Shown here: piece by piece, positions 193 through 64,000 of the stretch | How the letters are laid out: each line of letters starts with the position of its first letter | How positions within the stretch are numbered: the stretch's first letter is position 1 | Source of the DNA: Isoetes taiwanensis | Lineage: Eukaryota > Streptophyta > Lycopodiopsida > Isoetales > Isoetaceae | Assembly: GCA_021234155.1 (NCBI GenBank) | Contig: JAJEKV010000001.1 | Span: 929,927 to 993,926, forward strand | Reading direction: 5' to 3' | Length of the DNA stretch: 64,000 bases | Notes under the pieces: generated by a model | The model's database searches: none | Told to the model about the DNA's origin: nothing | The model's input: only the letters and a program-made list of their open reading frames with translations | Translations under genes and position numbers: made by a program

Positions 193-196
<4 letters not shown>

Positions 197-24391: not shown

Positions 24392-24709
24392 CAACATGAT
24401 GAATGCTATCACATCATTATCTTTGGAAAATTTGATGTGCCAGAAGCAAGCGTAAAACATATTCTTTGTGCTTTTGCTCATTCAAAAGAACATATGGTAA
24501 AGTCTTCTTCAATGATTTATTTCCCATAATTGCTATGAATTTGAACATGTTAAGAAGTTGAAATGCAAATAAGAAATATTTATCATACAAGCTAAGCATC
24601 AAATGATGTATAAGGTTTGACAGCATTAGGTTACAGGAACTTGAAGGTGGGACAACATAAGGTTGTGTAAAGCTCACAAACAATGTGATGGAATAAATGT
24701 CTGGGTGAA
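24392..24709. other. Spacer, nothing recognised
   Basis: AT-rich sequence after the ADH remnant. No further ADH exon is visible. Confidence 0.35.
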
Positions 24710-32425: not shown

Positions 32426-32811
32426 GGCGTGGGGCAGCCGAGCCCTCATAATTGTTTTTTGCACTGAAATCAACACCATATAGTATTTCGCTTGAAATCT
32501 TATAGTATTTTCTTAATCTTATTATACAAGATAGCAAATTTTGTACTTGCATACCCCACAAACGAGGAACTTTACGTGCGGTATAGATTAAGGAATAGGG
32601 GTGAATATGCCTATCCAACAGCTCTCGTTGCCCGAAGTCACCCCCCGTGTGAATATGCACCCAAACCAAAGGGGGTTTAAGGGGGATTTTAATTTAAATG
32701 TGTTGGACCCAATGGTTATGTTAATTAATGTCAATGGTAGTTATGTGTTAGTTGTTAATGTCAATGGTTGTTATGTGTTGGGGATTTAATTTTTATATGT
32801 TGGATGTTAAT
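32260..32811. mobile_element. Foldback element with about 165-bp inverted arms
   Basis: The left arm (32,260-32,425, starting ATTAACATCCAACATATAAAA) is repeated in reverse complement at about 32,640-32,811. The arms are about 90% alike and include the words ACCATTGGGTCCAACACATT and CCTTTGGTTTGGGTGCATAT. The loop between the arms is about 215 bp with no coding similarity. The structure resembles a foldback or long-TIR MITE. I cannot identify a clear target duplication. Copy 2 of the wider repeat in copy B carries only one arm. Confidence 0.75.
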
Positions 32812-34789: not shown

Positions 34790-35954
34790 CTAACCTTGCT
34801 TGTGATTTACGTTGTTTTGCATTGCATGTAGGGCTTTCCAACAAAGTAATTATGAGAATAGATTAAAGGGAACTTCAAAAAATACAAAAAAAAAAACATT
34901 AAATGGGCAAATATACGTTGTAAGTGCAGCCAAAAATAGGTTGTAAGTATAGCTTAGGTGTAGATAATTATGCAAAATTAATGATAACATAAGGTGTATG
35001 GTAGTAGTACTAAAGAGGTAAGTATAGGTCGTAATTCTAGATAGGCCAAAGTTGGTTGTAAGTATAGCTGAGGTCTAGGTAATTATACAAAATTGATGAC
35101 AAAACAGGTTTTAAGTATAGCTGACATGTGAGTAATTCTATCTTATATTATAATGCTATTGTGTAAGTGTTGGACCCAGCCCTAATTTGGACGCTCCAGA
35201 TTCGACTAAACTGATGGTGAAGATCATAAGCTCTTTAGGGTTTGCGAGGGCGGCTATGGCACCCGCTTCACTCCTTAGTTTCTAGAACAATCATTCATCT
35301 GTTATTCTATTCGTGGGCAGGGTGGTTTGGGATATTGAAGAGTTCTATTTCTTTCAAATCCAGCAGAGTTCCGTTTAGTTGAAAAAATTTGTGGGCGGAC
35401 TGGCAATTTCAAACGAGGGTTTTTTGGTTAAAGTAACTAATGTAACCGATGACGTTTAGGCTTCCCTTTGCGGAGCTCTAGAGTGTTTACCAGAGGCTGT
35501 GGGGCGAGCAGTCATCACCAATTTGATTTCCACTATTCTGCTTTGCATTTCTGCTCCCAGATCAAAAAAATAACGGACTTCTTAGTTCTGTATTCCACCA
35601 GAACAATTTTCCTAATTTCGACACTGCCCAATGCTCCATGCCAGCGATTATCTGATATGGCTGCTACAGGTAATTTTGAATTTTCGTGGTTGTTTTTGTT
35701 TGCATGTATAGCTATGGTTCCAGCTTTACTTTGTTTGAAATTGTATGCAGCTATATACGGCAAAAAATCTCGCATGCTTGCCTTCTACCCAGGCCACAGG
35801 TCTTGCCATTCTGTTGAACTGTAGGAACAATTTGCCTCAGTGATGCTCATGCCACTATAGATGAATTGAGTTTAAAAGGATTGGATTTTATAGCTAACTA
35901 GGAAGTGGAGAGCTCAGTAGCAACTCTGCAACTCTTATAGTGAATTTTGATTGT
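34790..35954. other. Spacer with diverged tandem repeats
   Basis: Between 34,905 and 35,130 the phrase 'ggttgtaagtatagct' and its neighbours 'gtagataattatgcaaaatt' recur about 120 bp apart in diverged form. The plus-strand frame at 35,468-35,824 (containing YGKKSRMLAFYPGH) has no secure assignment. Confidence 0.4.
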
Positions 35955-36172
35955 GCTCTTCAAGGTGACTAACAGTTATTAGCACACAAAAATGGACAAC
36001 ATCAGATGAGTATATAAACATGGCAAAGCAGGGTGCATTAAGCCCTTCTGATTATGCTTGAATTTGCCCTCTTCATGGTGACTAACAGATGGAGTCCTCA
36101 TTTGCATTTGGCACACAAAGATGGACACCATCAGATGACTATGTAAACATGGAAAAGCAGGGTGCATTAAGG
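35955..36172. repeat. Two-unit tandem repeat, about 120-132 bp
   Basis: 'ggtgactaacag' (35,964 and 36,078), 'cacacaaa.atggac' and 'aaagcagggtgcattaag' each occur twice in the same order. The second unit carries a small insertion. Confidence 0.8.
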
Positions 36173-38660
36173 TCTTCTGCAGACTTTGCGCTTGGTGTTC
36201 TCCATGCAGCCAGTTGATATGATAAGATTTTAAACATAAGGCAGTTTACTTCAGGATGGTGTACATAAGACAGTTTGCTTCAGGATGGTATGCCAATCAG
36301 GTAAAGATTCATTCTCGTAGCGTTAATTTTTCGTGCATTTGTTATACCGTTCGCTCTTATGCGAAATTAAAAGGCAATGACAATTGACCTTCCCCTGTGG
36401 CTTAGGGAAGGCTACTAGAGTGCATATTAGGACAGCTTAAAAATAAAGTTGTTAATGGGGGATACAATATAAGATCATTCACAATGATAGCATGTGATTG
36501 CCAAGATTAGGAGGTCAAATGGAGATCTTCTTGCTGCTGAAATTCTGTTGTGTTGCCTTTGAAGTTACATTTTGTTTGAAGTTGAATTTCTTGCAAGCAT
36601 CTTTAGTCTGCCGAGATTGCCATGTTTTGGACTTTACCAACCTAGAGCATTTTTGTAGTTGATAAGATTTTTATACAAACTTATTTTCTAAATCTTCTCG
36701 ATATGCATTGTTTCACACGCTTTTGATTGTTTCCACACATTTTGGGGAAATAATTTGAACAGATTGTCCTGTATCTGAAGATGCAAATTATGCCTATAAA
36801 CTTCACAGTGGGTCAATGCATGAATTCCACTAGCACATGCTCAAGGATGTAGGATTGAGCGAGAATAAATTGCGCATGTTAATAGTTTTGCAAGCGTTTT
36901 CTCGACCATCTTGCACAATAGAAAGATTATCCAATGGCCACATGCTACCAACATGAATGGTAAGTTTGGTAACATTACTTTTGCATATATAAGTGGATGT
37001 GATGTTCTGGATGTTAAAATGCAATAAAACCAGTCGTGGGCAAAAAGATTGGGCCATTCTTTCTGATAAATGCTTTCAGATTGGATTTGACATATTTTTG
37101 CAATAAGCATGGGGTCTAAACAGGATGTATCAACTTCTAAAGGTCAAGCACTTGCAGATGAGAACAGGGAAGAAAGAACTACGGTGGAGATTTGGTTTGC
37201 GAATGCTCCCTTCACTTATGTTAGGCACTCATATTGGATTTTTCTCTTTTCCTACAGGATGTAGCAAAGACCATCCTGCTTCTAAGCTAATAGGTGCTAA
37301 TATATCATATTACTTTGCAATTGTCATCGCTCCAACTTTGCTGCTACTGAAAGATTTTCTCTCTCATTAACATTGGTTGCATAATAGAAAGATTATACAA
37401 TGGCCATTTTAGGAATTGTGTTAGACACCATACCACATGGAGGGCACCAAGGAAAAATGACATCATAATTCTTGCCATTAATATGGGCAAAACATAACAT
37501 CCTGTTGTGTTTGGCATTCACGTTGGCTTGCAAGTTTGCTGCTTGGGGACAATTGTTTTTTGTCACATCTACCAATGTTCTCTCCTTCAGACACAGTACA
37601 ACAACATAATAGGGGCAGGGTTATATGTAATGGGAACTGGACCACTAAGGATTTATAGTTTGATGTATATAAGTGGTCCTGCAAGTGAAGGTATTGGCAT
37701 AGACATGGAGTCAAAGTGCTTATATGTAATAGAAACCAGTGAGAAGAACATGCCTGCCTATTATAGCAATGCTTTTCACCGCTTTTTCTTTACAGGGTAG
37801 CTTATTTGTTAATGTGAATTATCCGTCTAATACAACACAATCTTAATGAATCCTTTTTTTCTTTGATTGTTTTCTACTAGAAACCCCTTTATTTTGTTAG
37901 CAACATTGTATATAACCTCCCAAAATGCCAAATTCAATGCTTTTGACTCTTCAATGTCGACGCTCATGATGCAATTTTTAATGGATGCACATGATGCTCC
38001 AGGAAAATTTGTTGAGGTCATGTACAACTACACATCAATAATACAAAAAAAACCGCTAAGAAAAGAAAACAAAAAACATACAACACATTATGACTCCAAG
38101 AATCTTTGTGAAGCATAATATTATATTCTCTCATGTCATTTACAAGTTCCCAGCCTATGCCCAGCAACGCTGGGCACCCTTACTAGTAGAGAATTAATGA
38201 TAACCTAGGGCGTAATTAATTCAATAGAAGTAATGATAGCTAATTCGTATGATGTGATGGAATCATAATTACAACCGCGCCTATACGAAACCTTGTATGC
38301 AACTACTATATCTTGCATGAAACCCCTTCATTCCTTCAACCGCCCATCCTTTTCTTCCTTCTAGAGCCATTTTCTTCCTTCCTTCTAGTGCCATTTTCTT
38401 CCTTCCTTCCTTACCATGGTGAGCCATCTTTGCCTGCCCATCCCGCCAAGCTCCATCCCATCCGGACTCGCCGGAGGGGCTAAGAAGGGAGATAAAAAAT
38501 TGATCAAGAAATCCATTCCCCACTCCATGAGTGCGCTGCGGGCTGCCTTCCGCACCATAGATCGGATGAATGCGAGGACTTGTTTATTGGGGGCAAGCTT
38601 CTGGGGAAAGTGAGTATCTCGGCACCAGCTCTAGCAGCCCGGAGTCCCCCCATACATCGC
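36173..38660. other. Spacer, nothing recognised
   Basis: 'atagaaagattat.caatggcca' recurs at 36,918 and 37,384. Positions 38,340-38,410 carry TTCC-rich repeats. No gene is supported. Confidence 0.3.
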
Positions 38661-43909: not shown

Positions 43910-45495
43910 ACTCTTAACTCAAGAGGAAAGGGAAAAGGAAAAGGAAAGAGAAATGGCAGCGAAAGGTAAAAAGCACTTTAAAAAGGAAAAGAAGGAAAAG
44001 GGAAAAAGAGCACCTAAAAAGGGAAAAGGTTAAAAGGGAGAAAGAAAGGAAAAAGCACACTATGAAAGGAGAAACAGGGAATAGGTAAAAGGGAAGGGAA
44101 AAGGGTTTATGAAAAGGGTCGAGAAGGAAAGGAAAAGGAAAAGGAAAATAAAGGGAAAATAAAGGAGGACGAGGGAGCAAAAGGACAACGGAAATGGGGA
44201 AGAGAAAAAATGGGAAAAGAAGAAAAAGGCGCTGCGCGATGCAAAAAGGGAAGAGAAAAGGAAGGGAAAAGGGAAAGGAGAAGGAAAAGAAAAAGGTAGG
44301 AACTAAGCGCGGGAAGGAAAAGGCATAAAAAAATAGAAGAGTGGAATGAAGGGAAAAAAAGGGAAGAGAAAGGTGAAAAAAAAGGAAGGCAATGAAAAAG
44401 GAAAGGGAAAAGAACAAAGGAGGAAAAGGCAAAGCAAAAAAAGGCACAAAAATAAAGGGAAGTGAAAAAAGCACCTAAAAAAACCCAGAAGAAAAAAAAA
44501 AAAGGTGGGGAAGGATATGGGGAAAAGAAAGGAGACGAAAAGTTGAAATGGCCACCAGAAAAAGGGAAGTGGAAAAGGTGGGGAAAGAAAAAAAAATGAA
44601 GGAAATGACACAAAAAAAGGGGAAGAGAAAAGGGAGGGAAAAAGGGAAAGGAAGGGAAAAGAAAAAAGGGAGGGGAAGCCAGGAAGGTAAGAAAAAAAGG
44701 CATAGAGAAAATTAGAAGAGAAATGGGGAAAAGAGAAGGAAAAAATGAAGAGGGAAAGTGCGAGGAAAAGGAGAAAAAGTGGAAGGTACAAAAAAAAAGC
44801 AGAAACAAAGAATAAAGGGATGGGTATGGCTAAAAAAACAAAAATAAAGGAAGGGAAACAAAGGCACCTGAAAAAAGAAGAAAAAGGAAAGGGATGGGAA
44901 AAGGGAAAAGAGAAAAAAGAAAAGGAAAAGGAAAACCCTTGGTGAGGAAGAGGGGGGAAATGAAGGGAAAAAAGCGGAAGGAGGGAGAGAGGAAGGGGAA
45001 AAAGGCCATCGGAAAATGGAAGGGAAGGGAAAAGTAAAAGGAAGGGGAGGGAGGGGAGGGGAGGGGAGGGAGAAAAGAAAAAGGGAAAAAATGTAAAAAA
45101 GAAGGACTAAGGAAACCCGTGTGGAGTATGGAATAAAGGGAATGAGAGAAAAATAAGGTAAAATAGGATAAGAGGGGAGGGGACAAAGGAAGAGAAAACA
45201 AAAGCATAAATAGAAAAATAGGAAAGGGGAAGAAAAAAAAACGGAAAAAGGGGTGGAGGAAAGGGTGAAAGAGGAAAACAAAAAGTAAAGGCCACAAAAA
45301 TGAGAGAAAAGACAATATGAAAGTAGAAAAATAAAGACATTGAAGGTAAAACAACAAAAAAAAAAGGAAAAGGGAAGATGTTAGCATTTAGAATAGTGGA
45401 AAAGAAAAAAGGTAAACGGTGGAAAAAGAGGAGAAAGGAGGAAAACAGAAAATAAAAAATAAAATCATGGAAAAGAAAAAGGAAAAAGAAATAAG
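43910..45495 (+). repeat. 1.6-kb homopurine tract
   Basis: The plus strand is overwhelmingly A and G (GGGAAAAGGAAAAGG words), with only scattered C or T. The long Phe/Ser/Pro/Leu-rich frames on the minus strand are purely compositional and should not be annotated as genes. The tract is unusually long for a purine run and could form triplex DNA or stall sequencing. Confidence 0.95.
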
Positions 45496-47880
45496 AAGGC
45501 AAAGTGAAAATGTGGCTAACTCTCTTTAATTGTGTGGATTTCACTACAAGAGGATGGGGTTATAGTGGCCAAATCGCTAGGTCAAGACATGTTAGCTCTT
45601 TATCACACAAAAGTGCTCCCCTCAGGTCATGGACATAGTGTCAAATATTGTATCAAAAGGAATAACATTTTCATAAGTTTATAATTTACTCTTTATGTGC
45701 ATTTGTTGCAACAACTTCTAAATAGTGTTGTTCCGGAAGTGCCAGGAAATCTTTTCTTGGGGAATTTGTAAATAAATCATTATTCAATATTATAACTAAT
45801 ACTTCGGATGGAATTGAAGGGAAATTCCATTCATAGATTTGAGACAATTTTAAATCGATTTTTAGCGCCGCATTCCGCTAAGGATAATGAGGAGTATTAA
45901 TAACTACATTACACAACTTAATATCATAGGAACAATGGCAATACCATTAACAATACTAACCAATGCTATGAATGTACTCAATTTGTTCACATAGGATCAT
46001 GCGTCAATGTCGCCTATCCTTATCATCATCAGATAAAATGTAAAGCCACACCAGATTGCTGAATGATCACTGCGATGTTCTCGTGAGCCTTCATCTTCAA
46101 TGTAATCCCCTATTATATCCATGAATGTCGACATTACGAATTGAATGGAGATCTGGTGCCATAATCGGTTTCATTATCAATCCCATATCTCGAACTCGCC
46201 ACCGGTGATTCTAGAGGAACCCAGACAGCCATTATTACACTCAAAGGGAAACTCACCATGAAAATAACCATCTTCTTTATACACAAATTTTTGCCCTTCA
46301 CTATCAAGTATCATCTTCCGCCACGTAAGCGATCTTTCAAGAATCTCAACTTCACTTTCTTCCAATCTAACATCATATTCGTGATTGCGCAATAATGGCT
46401 CGCCATGATCACTCATCACCATCACCATCACCATCACTCATCACCATCACCATCACTATCACTATCACTATCACTCATCCTCATCCCCATCCCCATCATC
46501 CCTCATCCCTCATCCCCTTTCATCCCATTCCCATCACCTTCCTTCTATATTATCGCCATGATAAATCAATCACACGCTTCCTTTGGTCGACAATGTACAA
46601 CAATCCACCACTTTGAAGCTTCATTAGGATTTTCGAAATAAATATTCCGCTTCAACTCGATGGAAAGACAAATGGTTCTTTCATCTCTCGTGCAATACGC
46701 TTGAGGAATCTACTGAAATCCCGATGCATGACTTAAGTGTCTGCCACTCTCAGATATAACTTTGAACCGCCAGGCTTCAAGATATTCACATGGAAGTACG
46801 ATAGTCCACCCAATGATATCCAAGTATGGTTCCAACATAGTCAAGACATTTTCCCGTATGCTGCTGTCCTATTGCTAGATTGGCTTTTCTCACTCAAATT
46901 GTGCAAGAATGCCGTAATCGTCGTAACTCTATGTTTATCAACACTGCCACGCGAAGTGGTGTCCATATGCCCACATTGAAGTATGCTTAGCCTAATATAA
47001 AAAATATTATTATAAGTAAAATGTCACTTAAAAATAAAACTAAGAAGGATCAAGATTTCATAATCACGACCTTCCTACAAGGGCAATCTCGCAATCATCA
47101 TCCGAGCATCACTTTGGTTCATCTTTTAGTTTCATCCATACGAGCCAACAACCAACAACATTCCAAGTAAAATCTAATCGGCCCTCGGATAACCTATCTT
47201 CTTTTAGCAACTTCACAAGTCCTCCATGGTTGTAAGCTTGCGATTATTAATGACAAATGTGTGCTTATTGGGTACAAGCATGCCATCGCCATGTTTCGCT
47301 TCTATTCCCTGTCTTGTAATACTGGACGGATCTCCCTCGGGTTCTTCCTTTTCCCATAATTTGCAATTCCATCAGATGGCATGAGTCATGGCATCATTTA
47401 GATGCTAAGTTTCCTCGTGACAAGATGTCCTCCACCATGCAGCCCTCCTATTACTAAATGAACTTTGAGCACCTTCATATAACTTCTAGAAAAAAACATC
47501 CACTGGCTAGGAGCAAGTCCAAAATCTAACTGGTCTCATTTGGGATGCATTAATAGATGTACCTCAGATGGGCACGCTATTTACTTACACTTAGAATTGG
47601 TTACAAATGTAATACCCACTTGCATAAATATATGTTTAGTTGTACCTCAGAGGGTCAAAACAACCTGTAAAATTCTTTTCAATGTCACAAAGCAAGGAAT
47701 GTCTTCCTCCTCCATATTTGATATCTCATCCACTTCAATTCCTTTGAAGACACCCATCTTGCAAATTCTAATCTAATCGGTATATATAATGCTCCCACTT
47801 GTGGGCTCAAGAAGTCCCCTATCACATGGTAGTATATGCAGAATGTGCATGAAGTATAATTAAATATGCTGTAACATAAA
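45496..47880. other. Spacer with a possible decayed gene
   Basis: On the minus strand at 46,177-46,437 a frame reads LRNHEYDVRLEESEVEILER and FVYKEDGYFHGEFPFECNNG. It looks like protein sequence by composition, but I do not recognise it. Flanking frames at 46,560-46,960 (minus) are broken. Confidence 0.3.
46405..46512 (+). repeat. (CATCAC)n / (CCATCA)n microsatellite
   Basis: Short-period CATCAC and CATCCC repeats give His-rich and Ser-Pro-rich frames that are artefacts. Confidence 0.9.
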
Positions 47881-48299: not shown

Positions 48300-49385
48300 A
48301 TATCTCAGATGTCTAGGTAATATGTGTTCCCATCTCCTACCACACCCAAGTGTGAGCTAAGTCTCATCCCTAAATTGCATGTCTCTTCAGATATATATTG
48401 TCTCGTATCTAGCTCCCATGTCAGTGGGTTGATATCTCCGCCTATACAAGATCATTTTGGTCTTTGGTTGCTTCCATTTTCCCATGCACTTTGCATTATC
48501 CATTGTCTCAACCGAAGTCCACTTGGATTATTTCCCTCCCACGATTCCCACTTTCCAAGCCACTTGCTACATCATGTAATGCTCTTTAACTCACCGGGAT
48601 AGAGCCTTTTAGTGATTCTTGAGTCATCCATCTAGCACCTTCTTGAGATATCAATGTAAAACACATCTCACAATTAAGCTTCCCTTCACTTCCACTAGCA
48701 TCATGGATATGGTGTTTGAGCTTTGACTCTCTAATTCTAGTCTCAAGAACTTCTTCAAGACCGCCCAATATCATCCCATAAATATTGTGGGAGACTTGGC
48801 CCCCAAATTCCTCATACATCCATAGCACCACACTCGTATTTGTGAGACTGAAAACAATTTTACCTTTTAAAATGCTATGACCAAAGATGTGGGATCTCCC
48901 AGACATGCTCTCGCGAATGCAAAGCTCGCTGCCCCCATCAATCCTCTCCGAGTGATACATGCTATTCCATCTATGGTTGCGGCTAAAAACAAGTCCTAAA
49001 TACTTATGTGAATCCTCTCACACATTTCAACTATATCCCTTTGTACCTGAAAACATTTTCAAGCCAACAACACACCGAATCATTATACCCTTGGTCTTGT
49101 CTAGGTTTACTTTGCATGCCCGCCTTTATCACGTAAACCCACCCCATCTAAGTAAGCTTTCTCAAGATGTGTTCTCTCGCTCTCGCAAAATACATGCACC
49201 ATCCCAAGATACATCAACAGTTAAAATTCACATACCCATGTATCTCCATGCCTCCCGACGCTTAGTATGTAAATATTCTTCGAATCCATCAACAAACATG
49301 CCAAACAATGTAGGTGATAATGGGCATCCCTGCTTTTACCCCTATATTACCTCTCATTAATCATGATAATCCTTTAGAATGGCTT

Positions 49386-49386
<1 letters not shown>
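48300..49386 (-). mobile_element. Decayed LINE reverse transcriptase
   Basis: From high to low coordinate the minus strand gives the 'KQGCPLSPTLF' type block (about 49,345-49,285), then FVDGFEEYLHTKRREA, SKPRQDQG and FRYKGI, the region where YADD and 'K...M' blocks should be. The open frame 48,960-48,586 follows with SERIDGGSELCIRESM and HSILKGKIVFSLTNTSVVLW, matching the 'L..R...+.A......W...K..+F..LV.PVVLYG.EVWG' region. Frameshifts and stops are frequent and the catalytic YxDD is not readable. It ends against the GA array. Confidence 0.7.
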
Positions 49387-49468
<82 letters not shown>

Positions 49469-49711
49469 TATTTTACGCCAGAGACACAAGATCCTCTAGG
49501 ATATATACGACGCCCCCTTCAAGGAGCAACTGTAGATGTATTTTTTACGTCAGAGTACGCTTCAGCATCCTTCTAGGATATAATGACCTCTTCAGTATAC
49601 CTCACCCCTACAAGCATACTGGGCCAAAGGTCCTAGGGATGTTAAGATCCTAGTGAGGTTCTCAAACTAGACTAATGTGCTAAAATTTTAGGACTAACCA
49701 CACGTAATCAA

Positions 49712-49761
<50 letters not shown>
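49387..49761. repeat. Two (GA)n arrays with 245 bp between
   Basis: GA runs at 49,387-49,465 and 49,712-49,761 bracket unique sequence that copy A lacks. In that sequence the words 'tgtagatgtattttttacg' and 'gatgtattttacgccagag' are partial repeats of each other. Confidence 0.9.
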
Positions 49762-49765
<4 letters not shown>

Positions 49766-49821
49766 TTCAATAAGAAAAAATGAGCTAGCCTCTAAAAAAT
49801 TACACCAAGAAACCATGCCAA

Positions 49822-50415
49822 TCATGTATCTTTAACCCCTGAGGATACCCTTCTTGTAAATGCCTTTGCAAAGAGGCCCCATATCCAGCTTGGGGTGACC
49901 TTGCTATTCTTTTGTTCACTTCCAACAAGCTGTTTCTTCCCTAAAACCCATGAGCCCCTCGCCTCCATGTTAAGGTTTTCCCTCAGCCTTTCCTCCCTCG
50001 AGCAGGGGCCAATACTTTTTTGACTTCTTCTCAGCCTTTGATCCATTCTGTACTCAGTTGATTCCCATTCTCCTCGCTAAATGATTCCATAGGAAATGAC
50101 TCCATTACTTTTTGAAGATGCGTAATCTATCAAGTAAATGAACCACCTCCAAGTCACCCAATATTCCAACCTGGCAAAATATGGATACCCTTTCATTCCG
50201 TGAGGAAATTCACATTTGCATCTCCATAACTTGTCGATAATCTTCATGGATTCATTGTCGCCAAGCATCCAACCAATCCCCGGTGTCCATCGCTTATTAT
50301 TTTGGTGTATCATCGCACTCCACGCATGATGGCCCTCATTGCGGCGACATTTCTTATGCCCAAACATACCAAAACAATCACTATTAGTTTTACAACAGCT
50401 TTTACATGAAACCAC
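49822..50415 (-). pseudogene. tnp2 C-terminal exon, copy B
   Basis: Counterpart of 226-800. Pieces such as EGHHAWSAMIHQNNKRWTP, EYWVTWRWF and KARGSWVLGKKQLV are readable but in different frames, with far more indels than copy A. The 'LDPMH' block is garbled to LIDYASS. Not functional as written. Confidence 0.75.
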
Positions 50416-51809
50416 TATAAAAAAAAGAGATGTTTACCAAGTGGGTTAATGTGTGTTGAATAACCATTAATAGTTACATTATGTGTTCTTATGTATGATT
50501 TATCATCATCTCCCAGCCTTGTTATAATATTAAGCATCATGGTTCTTTGTGATAGTTTGTTTGGTTTTAGAAGTAGTGCTTCATTGCTCAGCTTTAAGTA
50601 TGTGTATTGATTAGCAAGGTCGTAAACCATTAATCTAATTCGATTTTGATTGTTTGTGTAACTTTAAAGTGTTTCTTTTCTAATGAAATTAGCTACCCAT
50701 TTCATATGAACTAGTTGTTTCCCTACAATAAAATGTTGCAGCGACATTATAGAACATGGACTAACTACCAATAGTTTTTGCATTAAGATAGCAATGTTTG
50801 TTAGCGTTGTAATTGACATTAGATTAGCTGAAACGCACAAGGTATTACGGTTGGAAACCACCGCCATTTCAAGTTATAAATCCATGATGAGTCCTCTATC
50901 ATATTGCTACTGTTTTGGTCCATGTAATTGTTTCATTTAGATTATGTCACAATTAAATGCCTATTTAATCATCATCATCAATATTCATGATTATCACCAT
51001 CTAATTCTAACGCTTTGTTCTTTTATTCAAAATAAATAAATATCTTCGCTAATTTATACTATGTGCAATAATTATCTTTTCTTTTGTTTTTCGGTTTTTT
51101 CATTGAGTTCTTCGCTCCTCACAACAATTGTGTTTTGTTTTCGGGAATCAACCCAAATAAGTTCATAAGGCATCCCCGCTTAGCTCTAAAGTCTAGTTAA
51201 GTTGAAATGACGTATTAAGCGTTCTAATGATCAAACAAATACCGGTATCTTTAAATCACTTCTTAAGTTGTCGTTATATAAGAACAAGATGTAAAGCCCA
51301 AGTAAGAATGAACACTTACTAGTATTATAGCGAAGATATATCGAGTGAAAGGCAACCGATATATCGATCTACTAGCAAGATCACAAGAAAACATCACCGA
51401 GGCCAAAGATAATTGGCGGAAAAAAAAATGCTTGAGAAGCTTGGGCAAGGGAATGCTTCGGAGAATCATGCAAGGCCTCAGAACCGCCACCCAAAAGAGG
51501 TAAAAAACATACGCACAAAGTAAGGTAAATTTGCCTACATACTTCGGGTGATAGAGGCAACGATTCAAAGATTCCAACCATTCTTGGCGACATCAACCAA
51601 GTGCGGAGAGAAAGTTAAAAGCAAAAATATAGAAAGTGCCGGGATTAGCAAGAAAAGAAAAGTAAGAGCAAAATGATGAACCCATGGAGGTAGAATCCCA
51701 GCATCCCTCATGCAGGCCGGTCAGCGAGCCGACGTGCGCATCCATGCGCCGCCTTTCGCCGCCTGATGAAAACTGTAAGGAACTCAGGAAGAACTTAAAA
51801 TAACCGCAT

Positions 51810-53125
51810 TTGACGCAATTCCGAATCGAGTTCAGAGCCAGCCGGTTTCCAAAGCCAACCTGTGTTTACCAGCGAACTCCCCCGATCGCTTCAAGTGAAC
51901 CCGCCATCTGACGCATACCGCTACATCATTCCATCGTTCTGCTTAACTAACTCTGGTTAATAACCGGGTATGGAATCGACAAAGGCATTTATTAAGTAAG
52001 AGATGATTACCTTCGTTCGGGCCTAAGCCAACCTTAACGGGCATAGGGGCTTATGTCGATTGTGGGATATTTTCATCTCGCTCCGCCTGGGTGTTTAACC
52101 CACGGGCCGGGCTACATGTTCCTTTTCTTCCTCGACTGAATCCATCTCTAGATCTAAGCCGACACTTGAATCGAATGCATTTTCTACGTACCCAATAAGA
52201 GCAAAATTTGAGCTCAACCGAGGATACCTCGCTTGATTCTCTACCGATGTGGGTATTGCCCAATTCGTAGGATTTTCGTAGGAAAATTCTTTACGTGGGT
52301 TGGAATTAGTTAATGAAGAGTCGGATTTATTAAGGCCGGCCGGGCAATGGGCAGGGCGTAATCGAATCGTGGCATCAAGGAGGAGGAGGACTTAAGAGGT
52401 CAATCGGGCCAGTGGTCGTATGATCCGGGACGAAAATGGATGCTATATGGAAATTGGCAGAGCACACGATTAGATCTGGGCGTATATTCAAGTGGGATGC
52501 AACTGGTGAATGCATTACGCGCTACCATGGCGACGTATCACAAAGCCCTACCGCCTTCGCCCGCCACAAGGCTTAAAAATAACGAGAATCATCTCTCCAA
52601 ACGTAGCTTATTTTCCGCCGGTTTGAAGGTCGCAAGCCAATAAAAGCACAAGAAATTCCAAATTTCTCAAAACCGTTTTCCTCGCGGTCAAGAATCACTA
52701 CCACAACCATCACTTAAGATTCTCATCAACAAAGAATGCAAAATTAAACGATTTGTTGCAGATCTCAAGACTCATGAGAAGCACCGGCAAAGAAAATGGC
52801 GTGTTCTTGTAATCCACTTTTCCGTAAAAGATAAGCTTATTGGCGTATCATCGGACTACCGACATTGGCGGTTCGCCTAAGCCAACCCTAGGCTCACCGG
52901 GTCCTAATATCAGCTTTGACCGCCACCGACACTTAATCGGTCAGTCTCGGCCTTTGCTTAACCCCGGAAGAATAATGCCATCGCGAGCGCATTGGCGCCA
53001 TCGAACCGCTTCATGCCACGCCCTCGCGTTCGCCTCACGCGGTCCTGGTTCTCGCCTGGCGAGCTTTGGGTTCGGCCACGTAACCCGGCTATTGGCAAGT
53101 TGGATCTACCCCTCGAGCCAATAAA
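51810..53125 (+). mobile_element. TIR element with STOP1-like fragment, copy B
   Basis: Counterpart of 2,234-3,585. The inverted ends are no longer exact (about 51,812 'ccgaatcgagttcagagcca', about 53,100 'ctcgagccaata'). STOP1-like pieces (for example AACGAGAATCATCTCTCC at 52,573 and AAGACTCATGAGAAGCAC at 52,765) survive between about 52,310 and 52,840 but are more broken than in copy A. Confidence 0.7.
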
Positions 53126-53774
53126 GTGGGCGAAAAATAACGACAAATCAGAGCAACAAAAATTGCGCAAATAAGAAACTAGCTGTACCTCATGTGCCTG
53201 TGGACGCTTCCAAACTTCAATCGCTACAGAACAAAATACTAGAGTAATATTCTAATATTTACTCTAGGTAACCTCTCTTCAAAAACGAAAACAGGGTTTG
53301 TTTCAATAGCAGCTTATATCCTCATGGAAACTTCTTCTATTATTGAAACCACTTTGCTACCGGGATTGGTTGTCCATCGGATCCAAACTTAGCCTACCTA
53401 TGCTTTGTTTTAAATAGAAGAAAAGTAGCAATAACTTACGAGAAACCAATATGGAAAGAATGTAACTCAATATGCTAATTTAGAGACAAGATAGGAAACC
53501 TTTTGGAAAGCCTTCAAAAGCACAAAGAAAATAAAAGAGGAAGGATCTCAGCCTGCGCGACTCTCCCCGCTTTATTCTTACTCTTAGTCTCCAGATTCAC
53601 GGGCGCAGAGGCTAATATGGAGGTAAAGTGGAGAAGCCCTCATAAATGGATGATGATAGAGAAAGTACAGAGGGTAATACTAGCCTATAAATGTATTTAC
53701 CTACACTGGCCGCAAGGCAGATGACAACCAATCGTAATGTTTGAACCAAAAATACATCGTAGGTTTTGTGGATC

Positions 53775-54145
53775 AAATCACCTTGCAGTTGCCGAAACGT
53801 CATTTTCAGTGTTCCGTCTCCGTTCGCTGACCAGTTTACACCGCCTACTGGTCGCACCACGCACAGGCCGCTTCGCCAATCTCTCATGCCCGCCGCCACC
53901 CAGCCGTTCTTCCGGCCGCCAGCACAAACGTCCGGAACCCCAAACCAATATCAACACCAACCCGCCTGCCGGCCAGCCCGTCGACTCTGCCCTTCCGCCA
54001 CGCATGGGCTGCCGTCACGGTTCCAGCGTCAGCTCGGCATTCCAGATGCCAAACACCGTCCCCACACGGTCATCCGCCCATCCACCACAAACCGCTCAGT
54101 GAGAAATCCCTCCCACTCCCAGCCTGTTCACCAGCCCACACATCC
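53775..54145. other. GC-rich segment of foreign composition
   Basis: About 370 bp with high GC and many CCG and GCC words, open in two plus-strand frames (53,737-54,102 and 53,766-54,188). The frames are Pro/Arg/Ser-rich with no recognised domain. It abruptly replaces the part of copy A that runs from inside the MITE (about 4,240) to about 4,900. It may be an insertion or a chimeric join. Confidence 0.6.
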
Positions 54146-56240
54146 TCACCCTTTGTGCCGCATTTCCCAACAAAAATATATTCCTTAAAATCTAAACAAA
54201 GGGCTTAGCTTTTTACTCGTATAAGTGCAAAACCTACCATATTCTTTCATTATACATCCACAACTTGGGTAAACTTGTTATATTAATAACCTTTAAACCT
54301 TCTAAGGTTGCCATAGTTGAGTTTGCCAAAAGGCAACCCCTAACATATTCCCTCATTACAAATACACAACTTGAACCTTGTATTACCAACCAAATCCTTA
54401 ACACCCAAGATGCCTATTCTCAAGGATGCTTTTGAGCCCGCTTTGATGTTGGAAACCCCGAACATAATGCGCGCCCAACACCATAAGCAAAACAGATAAA
54501 TGTCAAGTTAAAGGCCACTTTGATTGACATTCAAAAATAAGATCTCTCTTACATCCTACTTCTTATTGCTCATTCTACCAATATTATATAATGAACCAAT
54601 TGTTTCTGGGATGCCATTATGCCAAACAAATACTATGGTATGTCCTCTAAAACACTTCAGTTGAGTTTTTCAGCAGTTTTGATAGTAATTGAAGACGGGG
54701 AAGACTGGTATGTTGGTGCAATTCTACCACCCGAACACTTCGAAATAGTGGGGCAATTATCTCGGCATTTAACGTAGTCCCGTGGATCATGCATCTTTGC
54801 CGCCATCGGGAGACCTCCACATCATCATGCCACATCACCAAATTGATGACTTTTACCATCCTAGTCATCCGAGTTTCCACATCACCCATATTTGACTTAA
54901 AGTTCAAAAAATCCTAGCAAGCAGGGTTTCACACAAGGCTAAGACATCACTATTAGGTACTGTGGATCCGGTAATGGCTCGCCTTGGCTAGTCACCTATT
55001 TTGGGGAACCTAGTTTAGGCACAAGATGCTGTGGCCATTCCACCATTGTAAGCCAAGTTGGGCACCAAGATGTATTAGCGTTGGATTGATACCAAGATTG
55101 GACATCATGACTTTTAATTAAATACAACGCATTCAATGTATTGAGCCATATCAAGGCTTAAAGCTAACTAGCTTATGGACCATATTATTAATCATAGTTT
55201 TTATCAAACCAATAATAGTTTTAATGAACTATTATATTATGCATGAAACACCTCATAAACCATAACTAGTTTTAATAAAACTTTCACTATCATATTTAAA
55301 ACCAACGCTCATAACCACTATCAATCCAAATAAAACCACTATGATATGTGGTTTTCCTCTATCAAATAAAATCATGCATAAAACCACATATATTATGGTT
55401 TTTTAGATGATCCGACATTGGTTAAATATAATAGTTTAATTTAGGCCCCTTGTGCAAGATATATTTGTTTTTAGATGTTTTGACTTATAAGACATTGCCG
55501 GGTCCCACAAGTTGGACATCATCAAATTATTAAAAATTCACTTGTTTGTAGTCCCGCAGTTGAATAATACTCAGTAAATTATAAGAATACAGTTCTCATT
55601 TTTATTTTTATTAAAAGTACATCATAAAAGTCCAAAATAAAAGTCATGAAGGACGATTAACATTCAATTTTAAGATAAAGATAATGCTACCGGGGACCAA
55701 AAATATATATAAAAGTTCATATGCACCCCTTTTATTGAAATATTCAAGTTCTTCCAAGAACTCAGTACCTTTTAGGTGGTTTTTTGTCATTCATATTTTT
55801 AAGGACACCCTAACATTCTTTACCCATCCACATTTCATGCTTGTTTACAAAGTATCCTTAGTCCATGAGAATATATAGTGGTATATAAGAATACTAGTTA
55901 AAATTTGATGAATAATTTTTGTCAACATGATATGGCAAGCTTTTAAAACCCCATCCATGCGGAGTAAATTATAATTTTATAATGGAATGTAAGTCATGTG
56001 GACTTTTGATATGTCATACATATGAACCCCCTGGTAAACACCATCAATCCCTAGGTTCTAGGTAGACGCCCCGATTCTTCATGCAAATATAGCCATCCCT
56101 TCCCTTCTATCTGCTTCATGAAGCTCCGATCCCAGGATTCTCATTTTCCATCATCCGCGGCTTCGATGCCTGCATGATGGGAATCCATAAATTCCGGGCT
56201 TAGTGTTAGCGACAGTGCATGCCTTAAGGCGAGGAATAAT
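54146..56240. other. Copy B spacer with rearranged tnp2 region
   Basis: Collinear with about 4,900-6,300 and then 7,750-8,217 of copy A, with the ORF1-only LINE missing. The tnp2 central exons are represented only by frameshifted remnants near 55,440-55,530. From 55,980 to 56,090 segments appear in an order different from copy A. Confidence 0.6.
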
Positions 56241-57314
56241 GGGCATATGACCATCCCTTCGAGTGTTAAGGTTGCATCGGCAGCGCGGTGCTCTTCCAAC
56301 TAGATTACGCCTCACTTATCACCACTCTTCCTTCTGTGTCTCTTTACCCCGCTGCGACTTGCTCCTTGGTCACATCGCATGCTCTGACGCGAAAGCCCAT
56401 TGAGCAGCCACGCGTTCACCCCGGAGGATTGCATTAGCGGTCGGCTAGCTTCGCGGGGAGTCTCCGAGCTCGCCACCGAGGGGCGCGAACGGGTTATCTT
56501 GTGGGCTACGTATGGTGAGTATTCCCGCCACACCTATAGCCCCTCGGATGATGTGGTGCGCCTGGTGCTGTTCATCCCGGATGTTGTGTCTTCTTGCTTC
56601 AGCGCGCTGGCTATTCATGACACACTGCCCCCTTCGTGCAAGTGGTCTCCGTAGCCTCCTGTTCTCGATGGCGCCGGCTTGATCGCGGACATGGAGCTCA
56701 CTTCCCCAATCAAGGTTAGGGTGCTTCGGCGTGTGGTGCAATCACCGTATCGTAAGTGAATGCCCCGCGAGCTGGCCGAAGTCGCGGTTCTCTCGCCTTT
56801 GTTGTGGCCTTCTATCATAACGTATTGCCCGGTTTTATGCCCTACCTGTGTCAGCCTGATTGGGTTAGGGGCTCCTCGTTTAGGTGATATTTACCCAGCC
56901 GCCAGCTTGCCGCCCATGTGTATCCTCCGTGTTTGGCCGCCTATGCAAAGAAGCTCGCATCCGTATGGCTTGCTGGTGTGGCCGGATTTGGGAAGCGCGG
57001 CAGCTTGTGGATCTTTCAGGATCTTCAAAGGTTCGCAAAATTCTCCGATTCCTCGACTCGTACGTGCTTCGTCGCTCGGGTGTTCCCTGAGTAGAGCCAA
57101 GCTCGCCATTTTCATGGACTTCTTGGGTGTTGTAGACGGTGATGGCTCCGGGCTTTGTACGCCAGTGAGAGCTGTTTTTCTCTCAAGGAGTTTGTTGTGG
57201 AGGTCGAGGTATCGTCTCTTTGGGGCAAGAGACTTTCCTCACTTTGCTTTGTAACATTACCATTCTTTTTAATATATATTGATGACACAGCTTCTTCAAA
57301 AAAGGGGCATATGA
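56241..57314 (+). mobile_element. 5'-truncated LINE insertion, copy B
   Basis: GGGCATATGA occurs at 56,241 and 57,305, flanking the counterpart of 8,218-9,374. The poly(A) tail is only about six bases (57,298-57,303) against 16 in copy A. The body is about 80 bp shorter and heavily altered at CTG/CAG sites. Confidence 0.8.
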
Positions 57315-58380
57315 TCGCAACATCTTTCTTGCCACCTTTGTCTTCTATCTTCCTCAGTTTTAACGCAAGGCCTCTTACATTTTGGACATGATTGATAGTT
57401 TGCATAATCATTGTGAAACAAATACAATCATTAACGATGCACGCATCTATTATACTCTAGTCCAAATGAACTTAAATAACTCTCTAGCCTCTCTTCCTGG
57501 ATTTTGGGAGACAATGCCCATCCGGGTAATATTTTGTCAAGCAAACTACAAAAAGCCAAGTAGCATATACACATAAAACTTCGGGCCAAATGATAAGGAC
57601 TTGCACTTATATGTACCCTAAAAGTTCGTGAGACACTATTGTTGGTCCAATCAACTTTGTGTTGGAGATTTGTAATAAGCATATATGTTGCAAGACAAAG
57701 AAACACGAAAGTACGGGAACAAGTGGCCTACTTGCCCCATCATGGAGATACTTTATTTACTTTTCCCTCGAAGCCGAAGTTGTCATCTCCACTTGCATCA
57801 AATACTGCTTTTCACTGCATTCACCAATTTGTTCATTTATAGGAAAGAAATTTTTTAATGGTAATCGCAACCAACTCTAACGAAGCACTATATTATGTGA
57901 ACAAGAGCTCCCTTCCTCGAGGCCTATATGGACCACAAAGAATAGAACGGGCAAGACACTGTGGAGGGGAAACAAAGCCACCTTATAATGGGAAGATAAA
58001 TATAATAATAAAAGGATTAGTTTATTGGAAGCAACTTACTTATTTCATCTTGTTCGAGGTCATGTCCTTCATCAATTGGTTTGGTCTACTTCTGCAAACA
58101 AAGCACCATAATTTTGCCTTCATGTTCTTGACTTAACTGAGCAACCGATTTGTCTTGCCTTGACATTTATTGCACCAACAACCACCGACGGAGATGCAAG
58201 TTTTGTTCGATCTCGCCCAGCACGCTTTCTTGCACTCTTTGGTTGATGAGGACCTAATTTTATGATCGCATGGGAGGATGATACTTTGATAAATCTAGCA
58301 AGCATGAAGATGACACCTCGCTAATATACTTAATGATAAGCAATCACCCCTCACATTGCTAGAATAGAACTTGACATTGT
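57315..58380 (-). pseudogene. tnp2 upstream exons, copy B
   Basis: Counterpart of 9,375-10,386. Fragments such as CLATYMLITNLQHKVDWTNN and SFGLEYN are readable, and MQTINHVQN corresponds to the other frame of NYQSCPK. A 22-bp insertion near 57,490-57,512 and several frameshifts set it apart from copy A. Confidence 0.7.
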
Positions 58381-58732
58381 TTTTAAACCCGATCACTAAT
58401 TTCTACGAACATAAATAGTGTGAGAAAACCATCTTGAATAAAGTGCTACCGCAATAAAAAAATTCAACCATATACCATAATAATTTTGTTTGTTGTATTA
58501 TACTAGTAAAAGTGATGTGCTGTAACAGAAGTAAACTATATACATATGGGTTATAAAATGTTAGTACCAAATATAAAAACAAGGGCAAGGTGCCAATTTA
58601 TATGAAATAGAAGCGGCAAACAAACCATCATTATAAACAAGGTGTCACAAGACAGGGGTTGTTCTCAAATCTCGAGTGTGCTTTTCATGGGTTCTATCTC
58701 CTCGGGGCCCTCGAGTGTGTTTTCATGGGTTC

Positions 58733-58945
58733 TCACGCTAGTCTAGTGGTAATACACTAGGTCTAGCAACTATAGGTCTCGAAGTTCGGTGACCGCCGTA
58801 ATCGCGACTGGAATCGGGTTGGGTGTCAAACCACGTGACGCACGTAAGTGGTTGGGGCAGGCCCAACAGCAACAACCAGCTTACGCCGCCGGTGGCGCAT
58901 CGCTAAAATACTATCTATCTATCTATCTATATCTATCTATCTATA
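58733..58945 (+). mobile_element. tRNA-derived SINE, orthologous copy
   Basis: Counterpart of 10,778-11,011. The A-box region (GCTAGTCTAGTGG) is intact, the B box is altered (AGTTCGGTGACC), and the tail is (CTAT)n with one interruption. The GTTAAAATA motif is spoiled to 'gctaaaata'. Confidence 0.8.
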
Positions 58946-59570
58946 TTTCAATAAGCTCGTGGGTTTCGGTTTTGTTTTATATGGAGCCGCAGTAATTCAA
59001 TGTGCATAGACATCATCCCCAAAGAAAGGAATGATCATCTTAATATCAACCTTCGTAAAAGATGTATGCGACGCATAACCACGTGGAAATTATTATGTGA
59101 TGACTATAAGGCACAGATCATAGCAGCCTTGTAGCCCTTTACAAGCCCTCAATTACATATTGAGAACATGATCATCCTTTGAGGGCTTCGTATTTGAAGA
59201 TCTAACTTTTTATGCTACCACCGGCTTATGAATTTCACGGAAGCTACTTAAACCGCACTAAGATCTCAAACATTGCAAAGAAAACAAAGCCCTCGCATAT
59301 CACTACACTCGATGTAAACATGAATGAGAAGCATCTCTCGAATACCCCTCGACCAATAATGCTAATCTAAACATGGAATATTATTGCTGAGAGCATTCCA
59401 GCCAAATCTTCGCCGCTATTTGCAAGACTCTCATAGCCGTGGATTTCAAATCGAGGATGAGGAGCCACTTACCTCTCGCCGCCAACACCGCAAATTGGTA
59501 CCTGCAGGCATTATTTGAAAGGTAGCATATCAATCCTCATACTTTTTCAACAATTCTCAAAACAATTGGA
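58946..59570. other. Copy B spacer
   Basis: Collinear with about 11,012-11,655; no gene recognised. Confidence 0.4.
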
Positions 59571-59807
59571 GATAGATAGATAGATAGTATTTTAACGCCA
59601 CGCTCACTAGGCAAAGATCCAACTCCGAGATGCACTCACACACCATTACTCATATTGCTTGTCAGCCCCCGCCTTCAACCACTTTACATTAAGGCCTGCG
59701 GGTTTTGACACCCAACAGCTTCATAAGGATTTCCGCGCCTCTCAACCTCGACCTGGCGGCTGTTGTATCCTGCTGTATTACCACTAGATCAAACCGTGAC
59801 GCCCAAC
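59571..59807 (-). mobile_element. tRNA-derived SINE, insertion private to copy B
   Basis: On the minus strand this reads as the same SINE: TTGATCTAGTGGTAATAC (A box), the body with CTGTTGGGTGTCAAAACC, then GGCGTTAAAATACTATC and a (TATC)n tail. In copy A the matching place (11,650-11,665) is uninterrupted 'attggagagaaagg'. In copy B 'attggaga' precedes and 'ttgagagaaagg' follows the insert, consistent with a short target duplication of about 7 bp. Confidence 0.85.
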
Positions 59808-61417
59808 TTGAGAGAAAGGAGAACCAACCCGTGAGTATAGATCGAAGCTTCCTCAGCTACATCCATTATAATTCCAGATAAGTAAGATGCTACATTGCTC
59901 TAAAGAATACTTTAAATTCTTCTTCAAGTAATATCCTAACATTTGTCAAACACCTCAACCATGTATTAATAGCACTGCACATACCTATCAACGAGTTGCC
60001 GTGGTCAACTTGCAACCTTCTAACGATTAGCCATGAGTCACATCAAGAATAAATTATTAAGGCAAACATTTCCATGATGCGCCATTCGGTATACGCAAAG
60101 CAATCAAGAGTAATATGGATTTAGTCAAGAGAGTCAGCACAAGCCTAGGGAAGCATTAATACTTAAGGCATCTATTAGTCGTAATTGCCGAATGATAGTC
60201 CCCGCCAATTTCTAAAGCGAGCACCCGAAGGAATGAGACATCAATGTTCCGCCCAATATCCATCTTAATACTACCATGGCAACGAAGTGCCAAGCAAGCT
60301 CGAAGACAAGTATGATACAAATAAGGTGAAAGTTTAGTAATCTACAAGACACTTTGCATGGTGGCCTTTGCCGCGGAAGTTGGGAAATGTGGGATGCAAA
60401 TGTGTGCTACTCATATTTGCGTACTTTGCGGGCGTTGTTATTCAACTCACATGTTTTCACCGTTGTTGCTTGGTTTAGTGTATGCGCGCAAGCTAATAAA
60501 TAATGTTTGCATACGCTAAATTTAAGGAAAAATTAAACAGGGTTAGATTTCGCTTGTGCATATATTATACCCGCCAAGATAAAGTTTAAGTTCCTAGCTT
60601 TTGGCCATTGCTTCTTCTAAAAGCACAACTCACATAACAAAAACTAGATTTCCGGGCTGATTTCTAAAGAACTTAATCGTGAACACTCTGGCAAAGGCTC
60701 GCTAAAACATCACCCAAGTTTTACTCACATTTCATTATCGAGCTCCCTTTGTCGCCACTGCAAAGGCCCATAGGGAAGATTTCCTCCAAGAAATCGAAGA
60801 TGTTATAGAACGTTTATAGCCTTGGCTATGTAATGTAGATAGATGTTGTACCCATAACCATAGGCATTTAGCACATCATTAGAATCTATTGGCTTAGTTG
60901 TGTCACCAACTTGTTTAAAATTGTGCCCTTCATAACTCATGGCTTATAATCTTCCCACTATACACCGCTGCCGCAGTCAATCAGCTTTGCAATGATAATT
61001 AGCAGCAAGAAGTATGAGAAACTAAAAATAAATGTACTACAACTAACATCAAAAGGATTGACAATTCGAATTTGAAAGGTTTAATGGAAGGTAAAGAAAC
61101 GCTTGATTACGTTCAAAGAATGTACAATGCACATCAATAAATTGTGAACTTCAATAAGTACCATTCTAATTTGAGGACGATAAAATATTCGGAGCATTCT
61201 GTAATCCAGGTGACAAAACCATGTTTTTGCATATTTATGAATATATCAAGAGCCTTTGTCAGAAGTCATGATGGATAAGTCCAAAGAATCATTCCTCGCT
61301 CTCGAGACTCCAAAACTTAAAACAAATAATTACCATAATCATCATGCTTGCACAAATTCAAAGTGGTTTGGGTTGATTCCAATGTTCTCAAATGTTGGTT
61401 CGAAGGCCGATAAATAT
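59808..61417. other. Copy B spacer with PPR-like remnant
   Basis: Collinear with 11,666-13,305. The PPR-like fragment lies at about 61,170-61,310 on the minus strand and is more broken than in copy A. Confidence 0.4.
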
Positions 61418-62740
61418 GTAGCACAACAATGGGTTACTTTTAGATTTTATACTTTTCACATGGTTTTATATGATTTCGCTTGTTGTATCAAGTTGAGGTA
61501 CTAAATAGCATTTCTAGAGTGCACCCTTTATGGGCCGTGATTTCATGGTGGGAACAACCGAGGGTTGTTGTCTTTCTCAGATAAAATTTGTGCATGAACA
61601 TCGCGGCATGTGTATGCATGTGCATGTGCACATGCATGTGCATGTGTGCATGTGCATGTGTATTGTGCATGTATATGCATGTGCAAGTGTAAGTGCAAGT
61701 GCATGTGTGCATGCATGTGCATGTGCATGTGCATGTGTGTGCATATGCATGTGTACTTGCCCCCTTGGATTCTTATTGCCGGAGTGGATTTTACTACCAA
61801 TGAAAGATGAATTTTTGCTCACACTTACGTGGTAGGCTTGTTTTTAATGTTTCTTCAAGCTAGCACTTTTTTTTTTTACAAGGTATTGGTTTCCCCGATT
61901 CTAATAAATGAAGCCGAAACCCCTTTGTTTCCTTCCTAAGATTTGTCGCAGATTCAAAAGAGTTTAGAGTTTAGGTCCTCGCTTGCTTCCAACTTTGGAT
62001 ATTCCTGGTTCACGATTGTTCATAGCAAACACTTTTAGTTCAACCAACAAACTTGATTCTATGCACAATAACAGCTGATTATTCCACTCTTTCCATGTCA
62101 ATGATCACCAAACAGCGGTTACCAAGAATGCATTTATATTGTAGGTTTGAAACTTTAATCGAACTTACATAAGGTGAATCATGCATTACCTTTAAGCTAG
62201 AGATGGAGCATCCAAAATCATATAGGATTACAAACAATGGTGCCGCAGTTATGAAATAGCTGTAGTGGAAGTAAATAATATGTAGCATATCATCAGGGTT
62301 TCTTTGTGTTGCAAACTTTATGACTTCTTCGTAATAATGGGATCAATCCGCTTTATCTTTATGGTGGTAACTTTTATTTATGTTCCCATTTGTTTCATTG
62401 TGATCAAATTCAAAGCTACAAAGTGATGAAAGCCCTCAAATGAATTCTAGTTTTTTCCTCGGGTTTAAATTCTAAAAATTTTCGTCACCCTGGGGACGTC
62501 CCTATATTCATAAGCCAAAACTTTTTTGCAACACAAACCATTAACATTCAACATATAAAATTAAAACTCTAACACATAAATCAACCAACACACATAACAA
62601 ATCCAATGGCTTACCAACAACCAACACATAACTAACAATTAGCCATTACTAATTAACAACCATTTGGGTCCAAATTACATTTAAATTCGTAATCCCCTTA
62701 AACCCCTTTGGTTTGGGTGCATATTCACACTGGGTGACGC
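61418..62740. repeat. Dispersed 1.25-kb repeat, copy 2
   Basis: Counterpart of 31,175-32,425, in place of the 212 bp at 13,308-13,519 of copy A. It begins 'aatatgtagcacaacaatggg' and ends 'ggtttgggtgcatattcaca', then returns to copy A sequence at 'gacgccaacttattg'. It includes the TGCATG microsatellite at 61,606-61,755. Confidence 0.8.
61606..61755 (+). repeat. (TGCATG)n / (TG)n-rich microsatellite, copy 2
   Basis: Same sequence type as 31,370-31,506, with a different arrangement of TGTGCATG words. The overlapping His/Thr and Cys/Met frames are artefacts. Confidence 0.9.
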
Positions 62741-64000
62741 CAACTTATTGTAATCACCCAAAGCTTTAAAGCAAAGCATTCCCTCGTAGGCATTGGCAAG
62801 ACTCAAGGGCAAGACACCTCATAAACATCATATCTTTCTCAGCGATAGATAGGGATCTAATTACTATCCGTGACAATCTTTGACAATATTATCGTAAGAA
62901 GTTCGAGGTTATTTTGCGCTTTTCTCGCACAAAGGTCCAAAGATTTAGGTTCAATCTAATTTCGCCATCCATGACATACATGCTAGCCATGCAAAGAGAC
63001 AACATTAAAACACAATATGCCATGGTTTAAAACAGCACATTCACGCTAATGAGCATGAATTATATCTAACATCTAAAGGATAGAATTTGATCAGGCTTTA
63101 CCTCACACTCCACCATGAAGAGTATTAGATAGATGTTCCTCTCTGGGCTTCCTCAGATAAAAGCAAGCAAATACAGAAATAAATTCCACCCCAAGAATCG
63201 CTAGAAACATTACAAATAAATTGTATTGTGCTAAGGAACTGCCTATGCAACCTCGCAAAACATACAAAACATTGAGCATAAAGAAAAGTGAATAGGATGA
63301 GAAATAAAAAGAAAGCTGCTATTCACAATACCATGCATGTTACCTCAAATGATCGCTTCGACATAGTCAAATGACAAAAGTGAAGTTTCTAGAAACACCT
63401 GCCTATTCTGTAGCTTCCACGCCTAACAAATGAATCGAGAAAGACTTTGCAGATTTAAAATCTACAAGCATTTGGCTTTTAGGATGCAGACACAACTCTG
63501 AAAATGTGAAGTTGAAGTAAGCAACCCATAGCCACAACAAGTAAGTAGTAATTTTGGTAAGCACAAAAGAGAAGTGTTTGGCACTCAATTTTAATTTGTA
63601 GCTAGATTGATTCATAGCTACCGCCGTGGATATATGGTGGCTTGAGCATAGTATATGCAATCGCCTCTTTATGTTGCTGTGGGTGCAAAATATAGTATCG
63701 CCACCATGCGCATAACGTGCTATCTACATAATCGCCATTGTCGAGCTCCGGATTTTGCTACAGAAAGCAAGAATCCGATGGCAACTCCTGGCAACTAAGC
63801 AAATAAAGCTAAAGGAAAAAGACCTAAACCGTGATCAATCTTAGCCTTGGGATCATCAATATTATCAAACAACGGCCCCGGCTACTCGGGAGAAAGCAAA
63901 CTATGATTCTTCAAACGAAGACTTAAGCAGCAAACCACTTGCTCCTTCTGCTCTACCTAGTCAAGCATGCCAAATCCCGTGTATGAAGTTAACCTTGAGG
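62741..64000. other. Copy B spacer to window end
   Basis: Collinear with 13,520-14,755; no gene recognised. The duplication continues beyond the window. Confidence 0.4.

Follow-up and report, generated by a model that had tools for sequence, protein, structure and literature searches.

In the assembly of Isoetes taiwanensis (1.66 Gb), a window of 64,000 nucleotides on contig C907 (929,927–993,926), the whole stretch analysed here, holds two copies of one segment, copy A (1–14,755) and copy B (49,281–64,000), and the question it raises is why their spelling differs as it does. An earlier note had observed that long identical runs are broken mainly where copy A has CTG or CAG, and had proposed a base-caller confused by CHG methylation in an unpolished segment, with a biological mutation process aimed at these sites as the less likely alternative. 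We conclude that the differences are almost certainly reading errors in an uncorrected stretch rather than biological mutation. The errors point to nanopore as the sequencing platform and, from their sequence context, were most likely provoked by methylated cytosines. Flanks of 60 kb upstream and 80 kb downstream were added to the window, making 204 kb in total; all positions are those of the window, negative ones lying upstream.

Sequence context and kind of the differences

Segments of 1–14,755 match 49,283–64,000 in blastn in the same order, with ∼78–92% identity and gap openings about as common as mismatches. MAFFT with a stiffer gap cost gave 390 gaps and 2424 mismatches, with stretches that were partly misaligned as judged by eye. 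The comparison used here chained exact anchors of at least 9 bases, which gave 501 anchors and 492 blocks; the 35 longer blocks were dropped beforehand and rates were taken from the other 457, each no longer than 30 bases on either side. All ten strings quoted in the earlier note were found within 0–2 bases of their given positions, one of them also elsewhere. The strings at 31,636 and 61,891 had been offered as an A–B pair, but 31,636 lies outside copy A, in a dispersed element that is also present in copy B.

Overall, 34% of copy A triplets are broken in aligned ground, and the breakage is uneven. When all sites were counted, CTG was broken at 87 of 96 and CAG at 89 of 108, ATG at 55 of 281 and CAT at 53 of 296; among CG-containing triplets the counts were 36/42 for CGG, 40/46 for GCG and 37/54 for CCG, and CG overall was broken at 154 of 233. 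At isolated sites CTG was broken in 44 of 46 cases and CAG in 51 of 60, so that CWG (CTG plus CAG) reached 95/106 against 356/1721 for a control set of 21 triplets (P = 1e-48); isolated CG sites were broken at 61/107 against the same controls (P = 3e-15). CTG and CAG are the stronger half of a pattern comprising CWG and CG: the claim that differences centre on CTG and CAG stands, but CG and homopolymers are hit too. Breakage of CWG exceeded that of both ATG and CAT in 15 of 15 kilobase bins of copy A, some of which hold few sites. A test of which blocks touch a motif gave 239/388 against a random mean of 131, a weaker result than the site test. Both CG and CWG belong to the symmetric methylation contexts of plants, as set out in passages on CpG and CHG in PMC8514461.

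Pipeline bias as the cause of the context pattern was rejected by simulation. Uniform errors, run through the same code at about half the observed breakage, broke the 15 triplets tabulated at rates of 0.14–0.20, and simulated CpG deamination, in either direction, produced tables unlike the observed one.

The changes themselves are rich in insertions and deletions (indels). Over 4779 neutral bases there were 65 indel blocks, 41 complex blocks and 11 single-substitution blocks. Of 94 one-base indels, 47% fell in runs of at least 4 bases against 8% of random bases, and 63% in runs of at least 3 against 22%; errors of homopolymer length accompany those at motifs. A single motif is replaced in many different ways.

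The tandem array and its error-rich patch

The window and its flanks contain three tandem units of 46–50 kb each, and the comparison of these units sets the extent of the altered spelling:

About -8,856 to 40,577, forward strand: unit 1, which holds copy A and is mostly well spelled
40,577 to about 86,685, forward strand: unit 2, whose left half is copy B
86,685 to 137,052: unit 3, from the comparison of the tandem array
42,000 to 66,834 (42,000 to 64,000 within the window), forward strand: raw-read-like patch of ∼25 kb, which includes copy B

When unit 2 was compared with unit 1, neutral triplets were broken at 72/718 before 42,000, at 1693/7676 between 42,000 and 66,834, and at 413/7036 after; the corresponding counts for CWG were 4/9, 272/317 and 256/366. 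The breakage along unit 2 therefore defines a raw-read-like patch of ∼25 kb with sharp ends, the start of which was placed near 41,790 by composition alone. The patch spans copy B, as the earlier note had supposed of its odd segment, but begins ∼7 kb earlier and runs on past the window.

Milder damage is found in the other units. Between units 1 and 3, breakage of CWG and CG lies well above that of ATG and CAT in most pieces (in one example, 78/135 and 54/155 against 9/133 and 12/149), while the stretch 16,838–19,134 is clean, with 2 of 61 CWG broken. Errors of this kind therefore persist widely in the array, and polishing was patchy. A sliding CWG density over 1–41,500 was too noisy to locate raw patches there.

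An irregular purine-rich tract of 1.6 kb lies at 43,914–45,530 in unit 2. It was considered as a read failure and this was rejected: ∼62–80% of its unit-2 bases per 500-base bin fall within exact anchors to unit 1, so that the tract is real sequence.

The replacements differ between the two halves of CWG. Spectra were drawn from small blocks with one motif only (29 CTG and 31 CAG from copy A to copy B; 95 and 92 from unit 1 to unit 2), and their counts were compared by Fisher tests. From unit 1 to unit 2, CCG was gained in 31/95 CTG blocks and CGG in 9/92 CAG blocks (P = 1.5e-4); from copy A to copy B alone, the figures were 11/29 and 0/31. We infer from this asymmetry the dominance of one strand in the patch. 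Against that view, the mirrored pattern of replacements was absent in the single upstream pair tested, and the counts of CTG and CAG in copy B are without skew (87:108, P = 0.15). The region 8–52 kb upstream has a strong skew of the opposite sign, for example GCG 86 and CGC 36 in one 4-kb bin. Many of the 4-kb bins across this region, from about -52,000 to -8,000, have more GCG than CGC and more CGG than CCG, and CWG is scarce relative to CG; it could be raw sequence from the opposite strand, or the skew could be natural. An excess of CGC over GCG as a sign of raw reads was dropped, composition skew alone being unreliable because the upstream skews have the other sign.

Origin of the misspellings

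A comparison of two copies is by itself without direction. A fragment within copy A that also occurs elsewhere in the genome supplies one:

2867 to 3331, forward strand: reading frame of copy A for a STOP2-like C2H2 zinc finger (Pfam PF23115, E 5.9e-20; PF23118, E 5.2e-10)
52401 to 52877, forward strand: the corresponding sequence of copy B, divided between frames, with 0 of 6 pieces of at least 25 amino acids matching Pfam

Homology to the zinc finger is still detected in the copy B counterpart by tblastn, and we take the STOP2 family to be a mark of plant DNA. A genome search with the zinc-finger piece gave nine matches, three of them on C907 (copy A, copy B and unit 3) and two on contig C1038, 65.6 kb apart and 98% and 95% identical to copy A; weaker matches lie on C1041, C1030 and C1031. 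The ∼760 bases around the frame (2,544–3,304) are 97% identical to a dispersed copy on C1038. In the comparison with the C1038 copy L032, copy A breaks 3 of 33 CWG, and of the CWG of L032 itself copy B breaks 26/29 and unit 3 18/28; for the second C1038 copy, breakage was 3/33 for copy A and 20/23 for copy B. The spelling of copy A is therefore independently supported over ∼760 bases. The STOP2-like fragment is a dispersed repeat, of which a mobile element is perhaps the carrier. Open frames of at least 100 amino acids number 21 in copy A and 12 in copy B, a count that does not decide between the copies, since 13 occur in a stretch of unit 1 that does not belong to copy A.

An origin in reading errors is favoured because this independent copy supports copy A and because the edges of the patch are sharp. 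On this account 42,000–66,834 would be nanopore sequence from methylated plant DNA in all but raw form, probably a single read or the low-coverage tail of a contig, ∼25 kb long. The base-caller would have misread cytosines in CWG and CG and misjudged the length of homopolymers, and polishing would have left these errors in place; the rest of the array would have reached the quality of a consensus, with some errors left in those contexts. The confusion of a base-caller in an unpolished segment, as first suggested, is supported by the context of the differences, the excess of indels and homopolymer changes, the asymmetry of CTG and CAG, the sharp edges and the dispersed copy that agrees with copy A. 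It has to be widened to include CG, a stretch of ∼25 kb, milder damage in other units and structural differences between the copies. PacBio continuous long reads (CLR) were considered as the platform and are not favoured; errors in such reads are not known to be bound to motifs.

Natural divergence, with methylated CpG deaminated in one copy, would account for CG sites being so often different (154/233), and the CCG or TCG of copy B at a CTG of copy A is formally a C to T change at a CpG in copy A. We nevertheless regard it as very unlikely. TpG and CpA outside CWG are nearly spared, as the ATG and CAT counts show, the simulations in either direction yielded other tables, and the independent copy on C1038 matches copy A; the indel-rich nature of the changes in neutral bases (65 indel against 11 single-substitution blocks) argues against deamination and likewise against a process of the repeat-induced point mutation type. 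A new process of mutation or editing aimed at CWG and CG of one copy would explain the strong dependence on motif, and was the more exciting possibility raised at the outset for CTG and CAG. It would also have to alter homopolymer lengths, to yield many replacements per motif, and to begin abruptly at 42,000 and end as abruptly at 66,834, within a repeat unit; we consider it extremely improbable. Equally remote is the reverse direction, in which copy A is altered and copy B true, a direction that the pairwise comparison alone would allow: no support for it was found, the C1038 copy matches copy A, and it is copy A that retains the frame matching Pfam.

Several observations fit less comfortably with misreading at methylated motifs and count against it. 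CG is broken less often (57%) than CWG (90%), and 149 of the 457 short blocks lie away from CG, CWG and homopolymers of copy A, and 108 of these are away from them in copy B too. In the element at 31,170 the controls are high (TTG 3/7, CAA 5/10) beside CWG at 9/9. A count centred on copy B likewise breaks its own CTG (41/50) and CAG (52/71), and a 4-mer score is near or below zero in several 1-kb bins of the patch (e.g. 47,001, 49,001, 50,001 and 61,001).

Errors of this kind have precedents. In one benchmark Dcm motifs accounted for ∼70% of consensus errors (PMC6591954), and in Listeria genomes GCTGG and GCAGC were the sites of damage, caused by modifications whose kind was left unsettled, known 5-methylcytosine counts being alike in good and bad genomes (PMC10687267). 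These modification-mediated nanopore errors resemble the present ones in gathering at motifs that carry modifications outside the training of the base-caller, with homopolymer errors alongside, and the Listeria motifs share the CWG core; the difference is that here any CWG and CG is affected, as in plant methylation, and at the rate of a raw read. Plant methylation was suspected in a further study, whose main text leaves CHG unmentioned (PMC9749173). A literature search by titles and the openings of abstracts found no paper on this CWG pattern, which we do not claim to be unpublished.

The structure of unit 2 and the number of units

The structure of unit 2 changes where its quality changes. 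The features concerned are:

61410 to 62737, forward strand: element of copy B for which copy A has no counterpart in that position; unit 3 has it in the equivalent position, and it is homologous to 31,170–32,430
6367 to 7821, forward strand: stretch of copy A only, absent from unit 2; in the equivalent position unit 3 has no more than its first 100 bases
22612 to 22985, forward strand: the first of the two copies in a 374-base tandem duplicate spanning 22,612–23,360, which is also in unit 2 at 68,669–69,412

Left of 66,834, unit 2 has the structure of unit 3: the element at 61.4–62.7 kb is kept and the counterpart of 6,367–7,821 is gone. Right of 66,834 it has the structure of unit 1: 20,756–25,136 and 33,725–38,183, both largely missing from unit 3, are kept, and the insertions specific to unit 3 (114,582–118,367 and 120,951–128,110) are missing. 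The 2.7 kb of unit 1 at 18,078–20,756 is lost from unit 2 at 66,834 itself. A test of diagnostic substitutions demanded exact matches of ∼19 bases in unit 2, because of which 392 of 487 sites fitted neither unit; right of 66,834 five of the neutral ones were for unit 1 and one for unit 3.

Structure and quality thus switch together at 66,834, which suggests a false join there, with only two of the units real, a proposal that we hold to be evenly balanced. The raw tail of one contig, being the start of unit 3, would have been joined at 66,834 to a second contig, whose sequence opens within the right half of unit 1 and goes on into unit 3, and the true locus may hold two units only. Two points tell against this. 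The 204 kb contain no run of N that would mark a join, and of the neutral diagnostic substitutions to the left of 66,834 three were for unit 3, two for unit 1 and 15 undecided, for which reason the assignment on that side rests on structure.

A real triplication is a serious contender, although we think it somewhat the less probable account; the middle unit would then be a mosaic made by unequal exchange, with its left half unpolished, and the spelling errors would still be artefacts. The junctions at 40,577 and 86,685 look alike and both lie outside the raw patch, so that at least two tandem units are likely, and unit 3 has insertions of its own. Less easily explained by triplication are the coincidence of the structural switch with the end of raw quality and the disappearance of 18,078–20,756 at that very point, which suits a false join better. 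In false duplications described elsewhere, divergent haplotypes are the main source and read errors a minor one (PMC9516828). The present case is similar in that an error-rich and a clean copy adjoin on one scaffold; in contrast, that class is defined there by depth and k-mer tests, the present case by comparison of assembled sequence, and some of the tandem array probably does exist in the genome.

The dispersed element occurs at 31,170–32,811 and 61,410–62,737, with further copies in the array and flank near -30,686, 77,209 and 107,978; its inverted repeat arms (32,260–32,424 and 32,643–32,811) are 94% identical. In the 374-base duplicate, the first copy departs from the second by spelling changes like those of the patch, breaking 11 of the 17 CWG of the second copy, with CG counts of 16 against 9; the duplicate was considered as a false join and dropped, since unit 2 has the duplicate too. 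An open frame of 225 amino acids lies at 226–903 on the reverse strand. It has the look of a CACTA transposase, an identity that we do not claim; it matched no Pfam family up to E 10 and no entry of the PDB up to E 1. Rfam at gathering scores and a tRNA scan found nothing in the window.

The finding is biologically ordinary. Raw tracts of this sort mimic divergence and pseudogenes where there are none and may also add gene copies that do not exist. When near-identical repeats are compared, tabulating CWG and CG sites beside neutral triplets provides a test, free of reads, that locates the edges of raw patches. The damaged stretches may even be an accidental record of methylation, in which the 272/317 broken CWG of the patch would mean dense CHG methylation, the STOP2-like fragment included; we advance this tentatively, at a little short of an even chance. 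If true, unpolished tracts in published plant assemblies could be mined for methylation states from sequence alone, through a comparison of their CWG and CG sites with those of clean copies.

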